This document shows positions 42,511 to 55,430 of a DNA stretch of 64,000 nt, piece after piece; position 1 is the stretch's first letter, and every line of letters begins with the position of its first letter. The translations under genes and the position numbers were made by a program. The stretch spans positions 76,841,422 to 76,905,421 of the forward strand of contig CP142456.1 in NCBI GenBank assembly GCA_038049695.1, written 5' to 3'. Under the pieces are notes generated by a model that worked only from the letters and a program-made list of their open reading frames with translations, ran no database searches and was not told the origin of the DNA. Source of the DNA: Cinnamomum chago. Its lineage: Eukaryota; Streptophyta; Magnoliopsida; Laurales; Lauraceae.

Positions 42511-45261
42511 TTTTCCCATTTTATGACCGAAATTTAGATAATGTCACCAAAATCACTTGACAATGGTCAATATTTTTTTAAAAAACCTTTTTACATCATA
42601 TCCTATGATATCATGGGCTCCTATAAAAGTATTGCCCAGAACCAGTAGGACCCTTATCCTGGGGCCAAACACCTGATCTAAGAAAAAACCAAATAACACT
42701 ACTGTTTGAAAACATCAAAACACATATATAATTGCTCCTACAACATAAATGTCACGCCTCGAGCCCGAGATTAAGCTCATCTCGAAACATGATGTACGCC
42801 CACGTGGAAATTCAAACCAACATGAATTCCACGAACGTGTTTCCCCACAGGATATCACATGTGAGATAAAAATTTCCTTAACCTGTATAGTTCAATCATA
42901 ACTTGTCCATACATATAAACATCCATCAAATATGTAATCATGATAATAGAGCATAATCTAGTCCACGAGCATAGTTAAGAGTTTAAGTTTTAAAGTTAGC
43001 AAGTAAGAAAGAAATACTAAAGTATAGCGGAAGCAAGTATTAATTAGATTTATAATCTCCAACAAAGGCTAAATCAAGTCTAAGTCAATGGCAATCCATG
43101 CCATGGTCGAGGGAAATGGGGACGCATGTACACTCAACACATAGATGTCTAAAAGACATCCTTTGGGGCCCACTCTGCTAGCTGTTGAGGAGTCTCATCC
43201 CCAACCTCCGTGATCTCTTGGGCAATGGCGTCGACATGGTCCTCCCCTGTAACGCCAAGTGTAGCACCATTAGACTACGCTAAGCAAGGTAAACAAGAAT
43301 AAAATATAACATGCATATCAAACGAGTAAGATTGACAAGATAGATCATATGAGGTCAAGTAAGGAAATCTAGGCATACATAATGCGTGAGTAAGCATGAT
43401 ACGTAAGGAATCAAGGATGACAAGTGCATAGAGATACATATCATAACTAGATGGCAAAACTACATGAGCTATATTCTCCCACATAAACATGTAAACATAA
43501 TCACATGAGAGCGTGACATGACATAACATAACATAAACATGAGGTACCACTAGGAGGCATAGGGCCCGGATACTCCATTATGGACTTGAGGTACCGGTCA
43601 ACCCCCAATAGAAATACTATCTACAGAGGTCCATAAAAATTAACTAAATCAGCACCCAGTCGAATCTAATTGGGCTAAGGTCGAAGCTAAGTGATGCCGA
43701 CTTAAGGGATAGAGTGTACATCAAATATCATGGTGTAGCATAGCGTGAGCATAAACAAATACAAATGTAAACATTGACAAGTACATGACAATAATCATAA
43801 GTGCGCAACATAACATATCATATGAACATACATAGATACATAATGCATAAGGAAACATATGACGTAAAACAATAAGGGCACATGAGCTAAGCAAATAGAC
43901 ACGAGATAACATGTACATATCATGCAAGAGCACTAGAAACGGAAATGAAATGTATGCGTAAGGATTATATACGGAATCAATGATGCATAACAAGCCAATT
44001 CTAAGGTTTTGGAATACTCGTGGGCTTCACCGTCCAACAATGTGTAGGCTTAAGGTTTTCAACATCATTGGGCTACAAAAGAATCCTTTGCGTTATATAA
44101 TTTGGGATGCCAAATACCTTAAGATAATACATTTGATTTGGGGTACCAAGAACGAGTTTCCATGAGAGTGTACGTGTGCTCAAACAACACCTTCTAACAT
44201 TAGAAATCCATTGGGCTTAAATTAAGGTTCAAGGATTCAATACTAAGGTCCAAAACTAGGTACATAACCACCTAAAAATCCTATTAAGTTAATTCCAACA
44301 TAACCACACTTAGTTCACCTAGATACAATGTGGGTAGCATCAGTTATGGGGCTAAATTCATTGGTTTAAATATCTCCTAACTTTCCTAACCTCTGATTAT
44401 AAAGTTGTATGGACCAATGAATTCTATATTCCAAGAGCTTTCTAACGAAATGTAGAACTCCAAAATTGGACATACGGATTAAAAGTTATGGCCTTTCGAA
44501 AATCTGTAAATTCGGTTGGCCAAATTCTTGACTGAATTTATGACCTAAAATTTGGCATAAACCATGAATTCTATGCTTGAAACTCTATCTTTGGAGTGAG
44601 CTCCTTTCTCAACTTCTTACAACCTTTCAAATTCATCTCATAAGCACAAAATGAATCTCCAATACCTACTCCAAACCATCAAACGCATTCCCAATCAAAA
44701 TAAAACTCAAAAGAAATATCAAGTTATTACTACACCCATTTACAAATTTAAGTCAAATTAGAACAATAGACAGCATGAGCTGAAATTGGGTAATCTAACA
44801 TGAGATCCATTACAAGAATCATAAATAGAGAAAAACATGCATATTTTATAAATGTTTACTTGCCTTAGGTTCTTGCAACACAAATTTATAGAAATCCAAG
44901 TTATATCCACTCAATACCAAGCTCTAAGCAAAAACCCTCAAAATGGAACCTCAACCAAGCTCCTACAATGGTGAAAATTGAAGAAAGAACTACCAAATCA
45001 ACAAGTATTCACTATTAAAAACATTTAATCATTGCTTTGAGAAATAAGGAGTGATTTGGGAAAAGTTTTGCTTACCTATAGAATGGAATGGAAGAAGAAC
45101 AACAAATTAGAGCCTGAAGAAGATGAAACTTGTAAAAAATGGGTTCTTGCTTGAGGAAGATGAAGGAAAACATTCTCAAACCTCTCTATTTGATGTTTGG
45201 TAGCAAGGAAAATGATGACGAATGGGTAGGAAATGGAACCCTAGGTGTCTCTTGCTAATGG

Positions 45262-45955
45262 TGTTAGGTTTTTAGTTTGTTGCTAATTTGATGGATGCGC
45301 TATCACTCTCACTGTCAAATGATCACACACTCATGAATCTTAGTTTTGTCTTTGAAATCTAAGTTTCTAGTTTGCATATGCATTTGATTTTCAAATGACT
45401 TCATCCTACATGTTTTAGAACTCATATGCCCTTTAGAAACCCTAGTTCTTCATGCATGATTTTTTGGAAAATCAAATTAGACATCTAGGTTTGTGATTTG
45501 CATACACTCATCCTCTTTAAAATCTTGTTCTTATGCATAACTCATACTGGCTATGAGTTCCAAGTTTCATCTTTTCAAAAATTGAAAATTCAGTAGGAAC
45601 TCCTCCCAGGCCAGTGTACTTAGTCGACCAACCCTTGCACACGGTCGATCGAGCCAACTAGCCGTTGGAAAATTTTAGCTAGTATACCCGGTCGACAGAG
45701 CCCTGTCTAGGTCGACCGGGGAAACTAGCCGTTGGCCAATATAGCCGTTGGGCCCAGTCGACCCAAGGGTCATGGGGTCGACCGAACCAACTAGCCGTTG
45801 AACTAATTTTTCTATAAAAATCCATTTCATTCCTTTCTTTCAAGGGAGCTTGTTTAGTGAATCTTTGGAACTATATTGAAGCCTAAGGAAGAGGAATAAG
45901 CTAAGAAAGCTAGAGGGCAAATGGAAATCAAAATGTTTGAATTTAAAAGGTATTT
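45262..45955 (+). repeat. 5' LTR of the nested element (3' part missing)
   Basis: It aligns to 48922-49611 at close to full length and then diverges abruptly. It contains the motif array and TATA box described separately. Most differences to the 3' LTR seen by eye are C/T or G/A, as expected from methylated cytosine decay. Confidence 0.88.
45659..45820 (+). promoter_or_regulatory. LTR promoter: four MSA-like sites, GTCGACC words and TATA box
   Basis: TAGCCGTTG occurs at 45659, 45726, 45742 and 45792. The reverse complements read (N)CCAACGGCTA or TTCAACGGCTA. Two of the four fit the plant M-phase-specific activator consensus YCYAACGGYYA in all 11 positions and the other two in 10. They alternate with GTCGAC(C) words at 45623, 45691, 45711, 45758 and 45778, in an array with a period of about 67 bp. 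TATAAAAA at 45813-45820 follows. In the 3' LTR all four CCGTTG cores are mutated. Confidence 0.6.
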
Positions 45956-47000
45956 TATGATAAAATTCATGATTTTGATCAATTTGATTTGAAAATGATT
46001 TTCTTAAAAGTTACACCTTCTTAGTCAATTGATTTGTTTTTTCAAATTTGTTTAAATTTGAATGGATTCATAGTCAAACCATATTTGTCAAAATTAAATG
46101 TTTTTGAAAAATGATTTTAGTCTTACAAGTCTTCTTTATTACAAATGGAATGATTTAGAATTGATTTCATAAAATCTCTTTTCTAAACTTTTTTAAGCTT
46201 GTAGGATAGCTAGGTTAGGGGTAGATTGCTTGTAGAATGACCCTTATGTGTTCAGGCCTTTTTACTATGAACCTGATCAGAATATCAGGTTTCCCAGTTT
46301 GGCCGGTCGACCGCGTGAAGTGACCGGTCGACCGAGCATGCGCACCCAGCAACTTAAACTGTTGTGCTGGGTTGTTTCTGTTTCAAACAGAAACTCTCTT
46401 TTTTGTGCAGGTCGTCAGCAGTGAGAGCTCAGGTTTCTTCTTCCTCTTCCTCCTTGTTTGCTGAGTTGGTTCTTTTCCTCCTAAAATCGTGATTTAGCTA
46501 TTGTGTTTCCTTCTCCAATCTCCTAGCTGATTACAAATTCCTCTCAGACAGCCGTTTATCTTCTCCCATCAGCTTCTCTAGGCTCCATCTGATCTCCTAG
46601 CATGTAGCTTACTGGTTTCAGCTTCTTGAAGAATTTTTTTTCTTGCCAATATATCCAAAGATCAGTTTTCATTCAGTCCATATGTTGTGATACTGTGATC
46701 CAGTAGTCTGTGCATCCAAAGCTATTTCACAGTCCATTCCCAACCTTGGTTTAAGTCTCTGATTGTCTGTGGCTGATTAATTTCTTGGAGTTGTGTCTTC
46801 TGCTTTCCTTGACGAGTACTTGTAGTCATCTGTATACATTTCTTTGGCATCATTCTTCTGTGAACTACTTAGCTTCAATTTCTGCACTCCAACTGTTTGA
46901 CAAATTGCCTAAACCACTACTTTTTCAGTCTACTGTTGTTGTGCTCATTTTTAGCTCTTGCCTATTGCCTTGAGCATCCTGCTCATTGATATCTTCAAAA

Positions 47001-48175
47001 ATGGCACGCACAAAGCAAACATTTAGGAGGCCAAGTAAAAAGTCCAAAACAGGCCAAGCTTTTTCTTCCCATAGATCTCATTCTTCCTCTCCTGAAGTTG
47101 CTCCTCCTCCAGTGATTAGATTCAATCACATTCCTTCTCCATCCTCAGTTGTCAAATCTTTCCGGAGCAAAGGGATTATTGTAGAGAAGATGTGCATAGT
47201 CAAAGATCTAGTGGACTATGATGTCCCTGCCATCCTTGAAGCCATTGGATGGGGTAGCATCCTAACATGGAGTGGCAACACCTATGCTTCATCTGTCCGT
47301 GGCCTTTATGAGTCTATATGTGCCTCCACTGTTAAGACATTTACTATCAGATTCCTTCAAGTGAAGAGGTGGTCACGATAGATATGATCTCCTCCATCTT
47401 AGGCATTTTTAGGTCTGATGGACCAAAGTTTATTTCAAAAGTTTTGCCTCTTGATGAGAGAGATTCAGTGACTAGGGCTCTTTGTGGAAAACCTGAGAAC
47501 TGATCTACTAAAAACTGTCTTCAAGCCTCCCCTATGATCATTTCCCTACGTATCATTCATATCATCTTTACTCATTCCATCTATCTTAGGAAAGGGAACA
47601 TGATAGAAGTAACTCCTTACAAGGCAAATCTCCTATACAATGTGATTACAGGTGTTCCAATGTGCCTTCCATCAGTCATCATACACCATATCATCCGTGT
47701 TATCACAGGCTCTCAGCCATGTGCTGCTCCTTTCGGGTTTCTGATTATCCAGCTCGTCATATCATTTGGTGTGATCCATCCTGTTTCAGAGAGACCTGAG
47801 TCTACCACAGTCTTCAACAAAACGAACATTCTCTTGATGAAGCTTCCACCACCACAGCGAGTGAACCCTGTAGCAAAAGGAGATACAGAGATAGAGGCTG
47901 CAGAGACAGAGTCTGTAGATCCATTAGCTGATCAGCCTCATCAACCAGAGCCCCAGCCTCATCAACAGCAACCCCAGCCCCCTCAGTAGCGTACTTTGGA
48001 GGATCGTATGACTTCTATAGAGCAAGTTGTTGCTACTATGTGCACAGAGTTTCAAGAGTTTAAGCAAGAGGTTTCAGGGATGATGAAGAAAACCTTGAAA
48101 TATCTCTCGAACATCTCCAGTAGCTGCAGACGTCATGATGATGTGATGCCCCTATCTCCTATAGATTCATCTTAG
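47001..48175 (+). pseudogene. Decayed plant-retrotransposon protein gene (starts MARTKQT)
   Basis: ATG at 47001 has a good context (AAAAATGGC). The first frame runs to TAG at 47379-47381. Similar coding text resumes in another frame from about 47363, with stops at 47501-47503 and 47987-47989, and ends at 48173-48175. The product would have a basic N-terminus, a central domain (EAIGWGSIL, PYKANLLYNVITG, PFGFLIIQLVISFGV) like the 'putative plant transposon protein' domain found in non-autonomous plant elements, a Pro/Gln/His-rich linker, and a short coiled-coil segment (RMTSIEQVV..EFQEFKQE). The domain's role is unknown. One frameshift and two stops mean it is not functional. Confidence 0.7.
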
Positions 48176-48921
48176 ACCTTAGGAGGGCTTTTCACTTTTG
48201 TCGGGGGTAGTGATAGACTAACTTTCTTTGATGTATTTTATCTATGAACTGTCTGAAATTTTGATTACTGACCATGATATTTTGATTTTTATATTGGTCA
48301 ATTAATCAGTGAATTCTGTACTAAACTTTTTTAAATCAATGAAACTACAGATTCACTTGTTCATCTCTTATCTTCTTGCAATATTCTTCATTTGATGAAT
48401 GTTTATGATGCTTTGAACTATATATTCTCTCAATTAATATTTTTTTGTCTTAACTTCATTCAAACAATGCATAGACAAACCAATATACATGATAACCTGT
48501 TCCGCATTACATTTTCAATCTCATTTGGTAACAGGTGCTACTAAAATGTATTTTTTTTTTCATGTATATAGGTTCCTTTGCAATTCGATGACAGAGGAGG
48601 AGAGAAGATCCAACAGAGAGAAGATCCAACAGAGAGAAGATCAAACAAAGGGGGAGAGAAGATCAGATTTAACTAAGGGGGAGATCTGTTCAAGGACTAA
48701 AGAGGGAGAAAGCTTGAATGCGCATAAAGGAAAAGCAAGTAAGGGGAGAGCTCTAACGAAGGGGGAGAAATCTTTAAAATATTAAGTTAAAGATCACGAC
48801 GAATTGGTCGTTCGGACAAAGCTGCATTAAAGAGATTTCAAGAACAGAATCGTTCAGAAAAGCTAAAGTCCTGGAAGTGTTGTGATCATCTTAGTCGCCA
48901 TCAAATCGCAAAGAGAGAGAT

Positions 48922-50537
48922 TGTCAGGTTTTTAGTTTGTTGCTAATTTGATGGATGCACTATCACTTTCACTGTCAAACAATCACACACTCATGCATCT
49001 TAGTTTTGTCTTTGAAATCTAAGTTTCTTGCTTGCATATGCATTTGATTTTCAAATGACTTCATCCCGCATGTTTTAGAACTTATATGCTCTTTAGAAAA
49101 CCTAGTTCTTCATGCATGATTTTTTGGAAAATCAAATTAGACGTCTGGGTTTGTGATTTGCTTACATTCCTCCTCTTTAAAATCTTGTTGTTATGGATAA
49201 CTCATACTGGCCATGAGTTCCAAATTTCATCTTTTAAAAAAGTGAAAATTCAGTTGGAACTCCTCCCAGGCCAGTGTACTCATTGGACCGACCCCTACAC
49301 CCGGTCGACCGAGCCAACTAGTCGTTAGGAAATTCCAGCTAGTATACCCGGTCGACCGAGCCTTTTCCAAGTCGACCGGGGAAACTAGACGTTGGCCAAT
49401 ATAGCCGCTGGGCCTGGTTGACCCAAAGGTCATGGGGTCGACCGAGCCAACTAGGCGTTGGACTGATTTTTCTATAAAAGTTTATTTCATTCATTTCTTT
49501 CAAGGGGGCTTATTTAGTGAATCTTTGGAACTATATTGAAGCCTAAGAAAGAGAAATAAGCTAAGAAAGTTAGAGGGCAAATGGAAATCAAAATGTTTGA
49601 TATTTAAAAGTATATCTTTCCAAGTTACGATTGGTTTCCATTCCATTTAAAATCCATGTATGTTTAACTCTTTGTAACTTCATATTTGCATGATTTCTAG
49701 CTTTAACTGAGTTGTTTTGCAATCATCAACTCACTTAAGCATATTATATTGTTTTGCGAACACTGATGTCTCAATCACATGTGTTTTAGTCTTTAAACTT
49801 CATACAACTTGTGTAGTATGTCTTTTCAAGTTGTTTTGAATATTTAATGTGATTAGCTTATCACTTCAATCATCTATTTATGTGCTTAGATTTTCAAATG
49901 CATCAAGCATTCATTTAAGAGCTTCATTTTAGAAATTGATTGAAGTAAAACATTCATACACTTTGAGCACACACATTAGCTAATTGTTTGTGTATGTTTG
50001 TATCTTGTTTTAACTTTCATATCAGCCTATTTAAGAGGCAAATGTATTGAACTTAAATTGTATCTCTTTAAGTGTTTGTGTAGACACTACTTTGAGAAAA
50101 ATCTTTTTTATTGTAAGGGTTATTGCTTAGCCTAAGAAAATCATCATTGTAGAGGTTATTGCTTAGCCTTGGAAAAACATCTTGTAAAGGTTATTACTTA
50201 GCCTGGAAAAGCACATTGATAGGTTGTTGTTTAGCCTAGAAAAACATTTTTGTAAAGGTTATTGCTTAACCTTTTTGAAAAACATAGATAGTGGAAATCC
50301 GGTGGGGTGTTAGATCACAAGCCGGTAGTGGATGTAGGCATTAAAGCCAAACCACTATAAATCATTGTGTGATGGTGTATGGTTGTTGTAATTGTTTTTG
50401 TTAGCTTCCGCATTTTGTTTGATTATCATCACTAGTGACTAGTTAATTTTAAAGAAGTTAAAATTTGGCATAATTGGTCACTAACTTGTAGCTCACCCTA
50501 TTCAGCCCCCCTCTAGGGTTAAGATCCCGGACTTTCA
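48922..50537 (+). repeat. 3' LTR of the nested element, 1616 bp
   Basis: Starts TG, ends CA, and follows a purine tract (GCAAAGAGAGAGAT). It has a TATA box at 49473-49479, a short tandem of 'GGTTATTGCTTAGCCT' units at about 50117-50270, and a GC-richer tail. It gives the full LTR length that the 5' copy lacks. Confidence 0.88.
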
Positions 50538-51953
50538 AATGGAGATTGAATGAAATGAAAGAGATGGAGTTTAGGATTTTAGCTAGCCTTTTATACCATG
50601 AAGTTCTAGTATTTGAAAGAAAGTCCAAAAATATAATGAAGATTTATAATATAGGGCTTTTGGCTTCTAAATGTGTATAAATGAGCTCAAATGAGTTGAG
50701 TCAAAATATAGAAATTGAAAAATGACTCATAAACTATGAGATGCACTCAAAATCCTTGGAAAAATAGAAAACACACACGCGGGACCCAATAAACCCAAAA
50801 TACTCAATAGTCATAATGCAACCTAGTCAATGATCAAGCCCCATTCTAATCTACTTAATCAAGCCCAAATACATTCAAAACATACATTAGGCATCTAATT
50901 AAGATTAATTAGGCGCTAAACATGATTAGGATATGATCAAGATATTACAAGAAACATCAAAGTTTCTGGGCTTGATTTATACTTGAAGGAGATCTATTGT
51001 GAAAACGTTGTAGACACTTACCAGTTATCAATTGTTTGTGGGCATGATTGTCCCAAGGATAATGTGATCCATCTCTAGTCCTTTTCTCTTAGCTCTCTAA
51101 TTCTGAGTTACCTTATCTTTTTATTCTGGCAGCATGCTGTTGTGTTCAACTTCAAGGTTGGTCTTCAGTTTTGCAAATTGCAACCCAGCACATAGAGTTT
51201 CTTGGCCTGATTTATCTCTATGGCAGCAGGGGATAACCTAGGAATTTGTATTGAATGAAAAAGAAATTACTTGACTACCATTAACAAATTCTTATTATGA
51301 GTTTTTTTTTTTCATTGTACATACTACAGACGAATGACATCATGTTTTACCCACCTACTGCTATTCCAAATGTTCAATCTAAACCCTTTACACTTCTTAT
51401 ATATTTCCATGTTTTTTTTTTTAATGAATTAGCACTATACAAATTTGACACTCATTGGAGTTTTGTAGCCCCTTAACTAATCGATTATTCAAAATTTGAC
51501 AATCATCCAACTTTAAGTAATGGCTATAAACAGGCAATTTCTCACTTATTCATATTATTCTACTTGTTCTGGATAGATGTATGTCATAGGGAGACCTTTT
51601 AAGATGACCGCTCATTAGATAAACTTGTTAGTATGGTATGGGGGAATTTATCGTCTTTAAGGATAACATGATTGGTGACTTGGCATCTATGTCTATCTAT
51701 GTTAACCATTTTATTAAGATAGTAATATTTAGACAATGTTAAGTGAGGCGATGTTGAAGACTTGAGGCCCTTAAATGACAATTCACCTGGAGGAACTTAA
51801 CCTAACTCATAGTATAAAAAATCTCAGCTTCAATGGAAAGAACAAGTAATAATTTGTAACAGGCTATGTACTAGAGAGATGGAGATTTTTATTCCTGTCC
51901 AAATTAGTTAGTGTATGAATGCATGAAAACAAATTTAGGATGAGTTACCTCTT

Positions 51954-53495: not shown

Positions 53496-53854
53496 GGGGT
53501 CAGCTCTCCTAAGCTCAAGCTTAGGATAAGGTAAGCTCAAGTGTGTGATGGGGCCCACCTGGAGACCCACATGGAGATGGGGGTGGGGGGGATTTCAAGG
53601 ACTCCCTTGGATCTTCCTTTCTACAAAAAATCAGCCTCAAATGAGATTTATATCATCTCCATATGGGCCTAAAAGTTTAATGGTCAACGGTCCATTTGGA
53701 TTGATACATAGTCAATCCAACGGTCAAATAAATTTGGATATGATCGAAAGTTGGTGGACATGTGTAATTTAAGGAAGTCATGTGTTTGGTCCATTTAGAT
53801 GAACCAAAGGTGGGCCCCACAATCATGAACTTACGAAATTTTTTAGCCTTGCTC
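53496..53854. mobile_element. TA-flanked MITE, GGGGCCCAC type
   Basis: The left end AGGGGTCAGCTCTCCTAAGC lies after (TA)n. The right end reads, as reverse complement, GAGCAAGGCTAAAAAATTTC and precedes (TA)n. Inside, GGGGCCCACC near the left is mirrored by GGTGGGCCCC near the right. A partial relative is at 26652. The superfamily is unclear. Confidence 0.55.
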
Positions 53855-54570: not shown

Positions 54571-55320
54571 TCAAAAGAAGAACGAAGAGGGACCCAAATC
54601 AAACCCGTCCGTCACGTCCGAAACCGTATCGGAAACGGGAGGCATTTGCCCGAAAAGCGGGCTGTGCAGGTATTCATCAACCCCGAAACCAAAACCCGCA
54701 TCGTACCCGCTTCCCTGCTCCGGAAACCCGAACAAGTCCTGCCCGTTTGACGAACCCGCCTGACCCAACTGCGCCACGGGATCCGACAAGCCCGAACCGA
54801 AGCAGCCCGAAACGTCCGAAATGGCGGGTGGGAACGGGGGCAGCCCGGTATCGTCAGAGAAGTGGGGCCCGCTGGGGACCCCGGTGAAAACGGGCTCCTG
54901 GGGTGGTGTCGGAATCCACTGGCCGCCTCCGGAGGCGGCGGCGGCTGCAGTGGGGAGGAGGACGTTGGTGTTGGTGGCGGTGTAGTAGTCGGGGGAGAGG
55001 ATGGAGGTGAGGGAGGATCCAGGTGGCATGTCGTGATAGGCGAAGTTGGTGCGGGCCCGGGGCCCGCGGATGGAGCGGGCGGCGCGGTCGTAGGCAAGGG
55101 CGGCCTCCTCGGCGGTGTCGAATGTGCCGAGCCAGTGGCGCTCTTTGGTGGCGGGGTCGCGTATCTCGGAGGCGTAACGGCCCCAGGGGCGGCGCCGGAC
55201 GCCGAGGTACCGGCCGGGGGTGTCTTGGGAAGACTTTTTCCGGGTCTTCTTATCCGAGGGAGGGGTAGAAGAGGAAGAAGATGATGATGATGGGTTGGTG
55301 GGTGGGTTGGAAAAATCCAT
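54571..55320 (-). CDS. PUCHI: AP2/ERF transcription factor, PUCHI/LEP/FZP type, 249 aa
   Basis: Intronless, from ATG (55318-55320) to the stop at 54571-54573. A Ser run (residues 11-18) and a basic stretch (DKKTRKK) precede one AP2 domain at about 37-94 ([41 protein letters not shown]). The Ala14 and Asp19 that mark ERF rather than DREB proteins are present. Residue 15 is Ser where Ala is usual (YASEIRD). After the domain come [16 protein letters not shown] and, near the end, [16 protein letters not shown], both typical of the ERF-VIIIb members PUCHI, LEP and grass FZP/BD1. These are nuclear, GCC-box-binding factors that set lateral root, floral and spikelet meristem fate. The coding part is GC-rich against AT-rich flanks. 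PUCHI is the best fit; LEP is the alternative. Confidence 0.92.
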
Positions 55321-55334
55321 GAAGATATATAGAG

Positions 55335-55430
55335 ACTACAATAACAACAACAACAACAACAATAACAATAACAACTTCTTCTTCTTTTTCTTCTTTTGCT
55401 GCTTCTGCTGCTGCTGCTTCTTCTTCCTCT
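55335..55430 (-). repeat. Microsatellite-rich 5' leader of the ERF gene
   Basis: On the sense (minus) strand (AAG/CAG)n runs are followed by a (TTG)n and (TTA TTG)n tract that ends about 15 bases before the ATG. It is long, low-complexity and probably variable in length. Confidence 0.85.

Follow-up and report, generated by a model that had tools for sequence, protein, structure and literature searches.

Does a plant LTR retrotransposon carry a promoter that is read by the cell-cycle machinery of its host? The question is raised by a locus within the window analyzed in this work, i.e., a stretch of 64,000 nucleotides of the Cinnamomum chago genome, in which the initial annotation had placed four TAGCCGTTG repeats just upstream of a TATA box in a 5' LTR and had read them as M-phase (MSA) elements recognized by MYB3R factors. 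Exact copies of TAGCCGTTG are indeed localized on the forward strand at 45659, 45726, 45742, and 45792, ahead of a TATAAAA box read in the sequence at 45813..45819 (forward strand). On the reverse strand, site 1 (TCCAACGGCTA, 45659..45669) and site 3 (CCCAACGGCTA, 45742..45752) fit the consensus YCYAACGGYYA at 11 of 11 positions, while site 2 (GCCAACGGCTA, 45726..45736) and site 4 (TTCAACGGCTA, 45792..45802) fit it at 10 of 11, exactly as had been reported. All four lie at most 154 bp upstream of the TATA box, that is, as repeated MSA-type sites near the presumed transcription start.

The element that carries these sites occupies positions 45262-50537 and has the hallmarks of an LTR retrotransposon: direct LTRs starting at 45262 and 48922, TG...CA termini, and a short target-site duplication (AATGG), the left copy of which (45257..45261) precedes TGTTAGG..., with the same five bases following the 3' LTR at 50538..50542. 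The annotated LTR context was correct in kind and incomplete in extent, since the forward-strand segment 45262..45953 covers no more than the initial 692 bp of an LTR that measures 1616 bp when complete. The match to the 3' LTR ends at LTR position ~692, and other family copies compared with the window 5' LTR run on to ~1616. Comparison with a longer family member (L009) showed that LTR position ~692 is fused to the internal region at 45953..45954, and that ~2.6 kb present in L009 is absent here, comprising the rest of the LTR (R-U5), the primer-binding site, and a gag-like ORF. In L009 and L010, the 5' LTR is followed by the primer-binding site TGGTATCAGAGC, an altered form of which is present in L011; the window copy lost its own with this deletion. 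A polypurine tract (48909..48921, forward strand) adjoins the 3' LTR at the same place as the tract AAAGGGGGAGA common to L009, L010, and L011. The 3' LTR itself (48922..50537, forward strand) is complete, with 1616 bp and TG...CA ends. Its four sites read TAGTCGTTAG, TAGACGTTGG, TAGCCGCTGG, and TAGGCGTTGG, so that, as had been noted before, CCGTT is broken in all four, with TATAAAA intact at 49473.

Two forward-strand ORF fragments were recognized in the internal region. The translation of the first (47001..47381) starts with MARTKQT, and a Pfam scan of 46983-47378 gave no match; the second (47507..47986) weakly matches PF20167, a putative plant transposon protein (E 6.5e-6; 26.6 bits against a curated cut-off of 45). 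L009 and L011 have a gag-like ORF, in which a CCHC zinc knuckle scores just below the curated threshold. No polymerase match was obtained in the seven ORFs scanned, which yielded only the gag-like ORF with its borderline zinc knuckle and PF20167-type fragments. We therefore read the family as non-autonomous, and for the same reason its Ty1/copia-like placement is by inference. The window element is most likely a dead, internally deleted copy of this non-autonomous LTR retrotransposon family. The K2P distance within its LTR pair equals 0.107, and those within L009, L010, and L011 equal 0.043-0.053. At a substitution rate of 1.3e-8 per site per year, these distances correspond to insertion ages of about 4 million years for the window copy and about 2 million years for the other three.

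Several side observations concern these elements. At L009:7968-8000, the second LTR is followed by PBS-like and internal sequence where the target-site duplication would be expected, as in a tandem LTR-internal-LTR-internal arrangement. The MARTKQT start was read both in the window (47001-47021) and in L009 (ORF L009:4342-4941); L011, which like L013 is known at this place from out-of-frame translations only, appears different at the second residue. Histone H3 begins with these seven residues as well, and either histone-tail mimicry or chance is a possible explanation. None of the 50 pattern stretches from viral contigs encodes a relative of the gag-like protein, and the LTR had no match among plasmids. 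Paired CAACGGCTA was also found in at least 120 stretches of IMG/VR viral contigs, assumed to be phage, and these were left unused.

Is such a cluster of sites expected by chance? Under a first-order Markov model derived from the window, 0.08 exact TAGCCGTTG are expected per 64 kb, and each of 60 simulations of this model contained at most one. After masking of the family LTRs, 131 kb of other sequence from the same genome contained one pair of CCGTTG within 80 bp and one pair of CAACGG; pairs of this kind are therefore not frequent in the background. It should be stressed that the four sites are not four independent events, because three of them lie within repeats of a module GTCGA...ACTAGCCGTTG and because the two LTRs of the window align out of register over the promoter stretch (65% identity, 126 columns). 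Elsewhere in the window, two CAACGG sites (GGTCAACGGTCC and TCCAACGGTCA), one of them fitting MSA at 11 of 11 positions, stand 33 bp apart at 53685-53728, ~0.85 kb past the 3' end of a minus-strand ORF (54571-55335) that by eye looks like an AP2/ERF gene.

The U3 promoter as a whole is a repeated module, in which boxes of the GTCGAC type are interspersed with the CCGTTG sites up to a point just before the TATA box. These boxes, absent from the initial annotation, were identified at 45623..45628, 45644..45649 (here GTCGAT), 45691..45696, 45711..45716, 45757..45762, and 45777..45782. GTCGAC/GGTCGACC boxes are also present at 46305 and 46326, within the internal region of the element. CpG decay turns GGTCGACC into GGTCAACC or GGTTGACC, both of which include TTGACC, the core of the W-box.

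Further copies were required to establish whether the arrangement is a property of the family. The genome (1.06 Gb, 14 contigs) was searched, and the best 40 of 983-1398 candidates per query were considered. The first set comprised 40 LTRs picked by a promoter query, the LTR pair of the window included, of which the first ~700 bp were aligned; TATAAAA or TATATAA was recognized by eye in most of them. Two sequences found with a second promoter query (L182 and L188), five more from the matches of that query, and 20 copies picked by a motif-free query, i.e., the first 310 bp of the LTR, were then added, and L202 and L210, in which the LTR is broken before the promoter end, were dropped, giving 65 sequences.

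No other state is as common as CCGTT at any of the four sites among these 65 LTR sequences, 35, 32, 34, and 45 of which have it intact at sites 1-4, respectively. All four sites are intact in six sequences, three in 24, two in 18, one in 14, and none in three. The forms TGACCGTTGG and TAGCCGTTGG are the commonest in the family at sites 3 and 4, respectively; at site 3, CCGTTGG is preceded across copies by TGA, TAG, or TAA, all within the pattern TRRCCGTTRGR. In a set of 60 sequences, 26 supported clades were listed, some nested within others, and in 23 of them most members have CCGTT at every one of the four sites. Selection by promoter query favored intact sites, as sites 2 and 3 are intact in 25/40 and 22/40 of the promoter-chosen LTRs and are rarer among the 20 copies found with the motif-free query, where CCGTT is intact at sites 1-4 in 12, 5, 8, and 13 copies (L202 and L210 counted). 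In some copies (e.g., L196 and L198), a site was lost when 16 bp between sites 2 and 3 were deleted. The window thus holds both extremes of what the family shows, with an intact 5' copy and a fully decayed 3' copy.

Conservation of the cores across family copies had been proposed as a check of the MSA interpretation, and in this respect the outcome was divided. CCGTT is the family state at every site, but raw identity in the 40 sequences (0.899 for the cores, 0.913 for other promoter columns, and 0.915 upstream) revealed no excess conservation. Of the original proposal, the match to the motif, the clustered arrangement, and the placement in an LTR hold, and the expected excess of core conservation on raw identity does not; raw conservation was consequently rejected as evidence of function. 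Taken together with the position of the sites inside a repeated unit, this result agrees with the view that a functionless chance motif was multiplied by tandem duplication and that its apparent constraint stems from shared ancestry, conversion between repeats, and post-insertion CpG decay. In addition, C>T and G>A account for 90 of the 130 cells that depart from CCGTT in 60 sequences, as that view would have it. However, CCG is a C>T hot spot, so what raw identity mainly records is the decay that followed insertion, and since such methylation-type decay swamps raw conservation, we compared changes on internal branches, taken for propagating lineages, with those on terminal branches, taken for the decay of dead copies. 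Several such tests were run on copies that are related to one another and whose repeats may convert one another, so all P values given below are nominal and approximate.

On terminal branches of the 65-sequence trees, the cores changed more often than matched columns (107 vs 78, P 0.0008, with FastTree; 106 vs 76, P 0.002, with IQ-TREE), and on internal branches this excess was absent (16 vs 18 and 17 vs 20, respectively). For the five-column CCGTT cores alone, the internal/terminal ratio was 0.150 and 0.159 vs 0.235 and 0.264 for controls (P 0.10 and 0.064; 65 sequences). The same test gave 0.16 vs 0.37-0.43 with 40 sequences and no context matching, P values of 0.019 and 0.035, depending on the control pool, with 60 sequences, and P 0.069 (FastTree) with 60 sequences and a finer context class. 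On the cores alone, the evidence of constraint is suggestive only.

The degenerate consensus TRRCCGTTRGR was then made to supply the control itself: exchanges of one purine for the other at R were counted as allowed and all other changes as breaking, with columns matched for sequence context. The combined statistic was 0.34 (FastTree) and 0.33 (IQ-TREE) against null medians of 0.86 and 1.06 (P 0.027 and 0.005). After seven rows in which the aligner had the motif out of register had been shifted by one base at site 2, it became 0.26 and 0.25 (P 0.0085 and 0.0015); restricted to breaking changes, the comparison then gave internal/terminal ratios of 0.10 and 0.12 vs 0.26 and 0.30 (P 0.0015 and 0.0010). 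Without site 3, the combined statistic was non-significant (P 0.14 and 0.10), and the breaking-only measure gave P 0.0065 and 0.0015. In the corrected alignment, the consensus-fixed positions as a group yielded internal/terminal ratios of 0.11-0.13 vs 0.24-0.28 for matched columns (P 0.0025-0.015), or 0.108 and 0.125 vs 0.236 and 0.256 when the promoter region alone served as reference (P 0.015 and 0.012).

Two of these comparisons bear directly on the reading as a chance duplication. The depletion on internal branches persisted when CG and CHG columns were left out (P 0.003 and 0.0008, before realignment), and the invariant positions outside CCG (T, T, T, and G) across the four sites accumulated 0 (FastTree) or 0.8 (IQ-TREE) internal changes where 9-13 were expected from matched columns, with 27-28 terminal changes where 26-34 were expected (P ≤0.006). 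Outside CCG, internal changes fall on the R positions and are nearly always transitions, although IQ-TREE additionally assigned 0.9 internal changes to the G preceding the last R; the CCG columns, too, change on internal branches, mostly by transitions. Purine-purine changes allowed by the consensus thus continue in the lineages that propagated, while breaking changes at consensus-fixed positions are depleted there. This depletion is why we regard the MYB-type sites as likely kept by selection, and it suggests that the lineages which kept jumping also kept the motif; a functionless duplicated motif appears quite unlikely to us.

Constraint, it should be added, is not special to the MYB sites, because the GTCGAC boxes are constrained as well, having undergone 15-16 internal-branch changes against 37-41 expected from the whole LTR or 34-37 expected from the promoter (nominal P 0.004-0.034 in the internal/terminal test). 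It could be, then, that the boxes run the promoter and that the CCGTTG sites are merely carried along with them in one repeated module. A sequence inside the family member L012 (L012:4550-4697) is instructive here. It differs from the family LTR, with which it shares short pieces at most (best E 0.001 over 39 bp), and contains five GTCGAC-type boxes, one TGACCGTTGAA, and GTATAAATAC, and by its layout looks like the promoter of another LTR. Recurrence of the boxes at this place next to a single CCGTTG, and again in the flank of L042 (near 1839), is what a promoter driven by the boxes would lead one to expect, as are the few internal changes within them. Nevertheless, the L012 sequence retains TGACCGTTG ahead of its TATA box, and the CCGTTG sites of the family have a constraint pattern of their own (T..CCGTT.G fixed, purines free) that hitch-hiking does not predict. 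We consider it improbable, on this comparison, that the CCGTTG sites are mere passengers. As a separate observation, L012 and another family LTR (L023) lie 23.5 kb apart at G000:C1:83544856-83568637, differ by one base over the promoter stretch, and enclose a large insertion starting near L012:4163; apparently, they represent one element split by a nested element.

If MYB-type sites were selected, which MYB proteins would read them? The main rival to MYB3R is an R2R3-MYB, e.g., the sperm-lineage factor DUO1, under which transcription would occur in the male germ line and not in mitosis generally. The DUO1 consensus given in PMC6290024, RRCSGTT, matches both AGCCGTT and GACCGTT, and with them every one of the four sites. 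A retrotransposon would benefit directly from a promoter active in the germ line, and plant LTRs with sites for MYB24 and other stamen-expressed factors are reported in PMC11656987. The two readings differ at positions that only MSA specifies, namely the first T and the last G, at which 0 and 0-0.9 internal changes were counted vs 5 and 8-9 terminal ones. These numbers are small, and the difference in constraint leans toward MSA over DUO1 without being decisive. Control by DUO1 or a similar factor remains, in our estimation, a serious though rather unlikely explanation.

The reading that we prefer starts from what was observed, namely that the four sites exist, that they are present across the family, and that internal branches retained them in a degenerate-MSA pattern. 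Three-repeat MYB (MYB3R) factors would bind the four CCGTTGG sites, and this binding would place LTR transcription in dividing cells at G2/M, as with the AACGG sites of SCL28 in Arabidopsis. The clustering of four sites at 10-11 of 11 MSA positions speaks for this reading, in which MYB3R is the presumed factor and G2/M the presumed time of transcription. We give this reading about an even chance of being correct.

Comparison with known systems places this proposal in context. Host stress-factor sites are carried by the LTRs of ONSEN and Tnt1, which resemble the present family in that sites for host transcription factors in U3 time the transcription of the element, and which differ from it in that their timing follows the stress response and not, as presumed here, cell division. 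To our knowledge, plant LTR promoters have mostly been described as stress-driven. For a mitotic promoter, the closest demonstrated counterpart in the sources consulted is SCL28, in which, according to PMC8964727, four proximal AACGG cores are needed for activity, with binding and expression shown. It shares with the family LTR the four AACGG cores clustered near the promoter. SCL28 is a host gene with sites in both orientations, whereas the family LTR belongs to a retrotransposon and has its sites in a single orientation within a repeated module with GTCGAC boxes.

Among cell-cycle regulators, E2F acts in another phase than MYB. Brassica transposable elements with E2F sites (Henaff 2014, as cited in PMC11656987) are similar to the present family as mobile elements bearing many sites for a cell-cycle factor, and differ in the factor, which is E2F and not MYB. 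In tomato, insertions of an endogenous pararetrovirus (EPRV) are enriched for the MYB3R1 motif TdACCGTTrr, as listed in PMC8725346. This is likewise a reverse-transcribing element with a MYB3R-type motif, one that site 3 of the family in its form TGACCGTTGG fits, but the tomato case concerns intronic insertions and motif enrichment under viral infection, and not a promoter array. Within the portions of the open-access literature that the search reached, no account of a plant LTR controlled by MSA elements or by MYB3R was found.

Plants set no germ line aside early, and a retrotransposon active in dividing meristem cells can for this reason reach the next generation. If the presence of selected mitotic-type MYB sites in this LTR is true, the cell-cycle timing of retrotransposon firing becomes directly testable. 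The comparison of internal with terminal branches also illustrates how selection on a promoter can be recognized even when the copies are dead. More tentatively, and with less than even confidence, we propose that a retrotransposon lineage built a mitotic promoter from MYB3R sites, so that its RNA and cDNA would be produced at G2/M, the time at which the nuclear envelope of plants opens. This GTCGAC-plus-CCGTTG grammar may be common to several LTR families of the genome, in which case division timing would possibly be a common strategy there.
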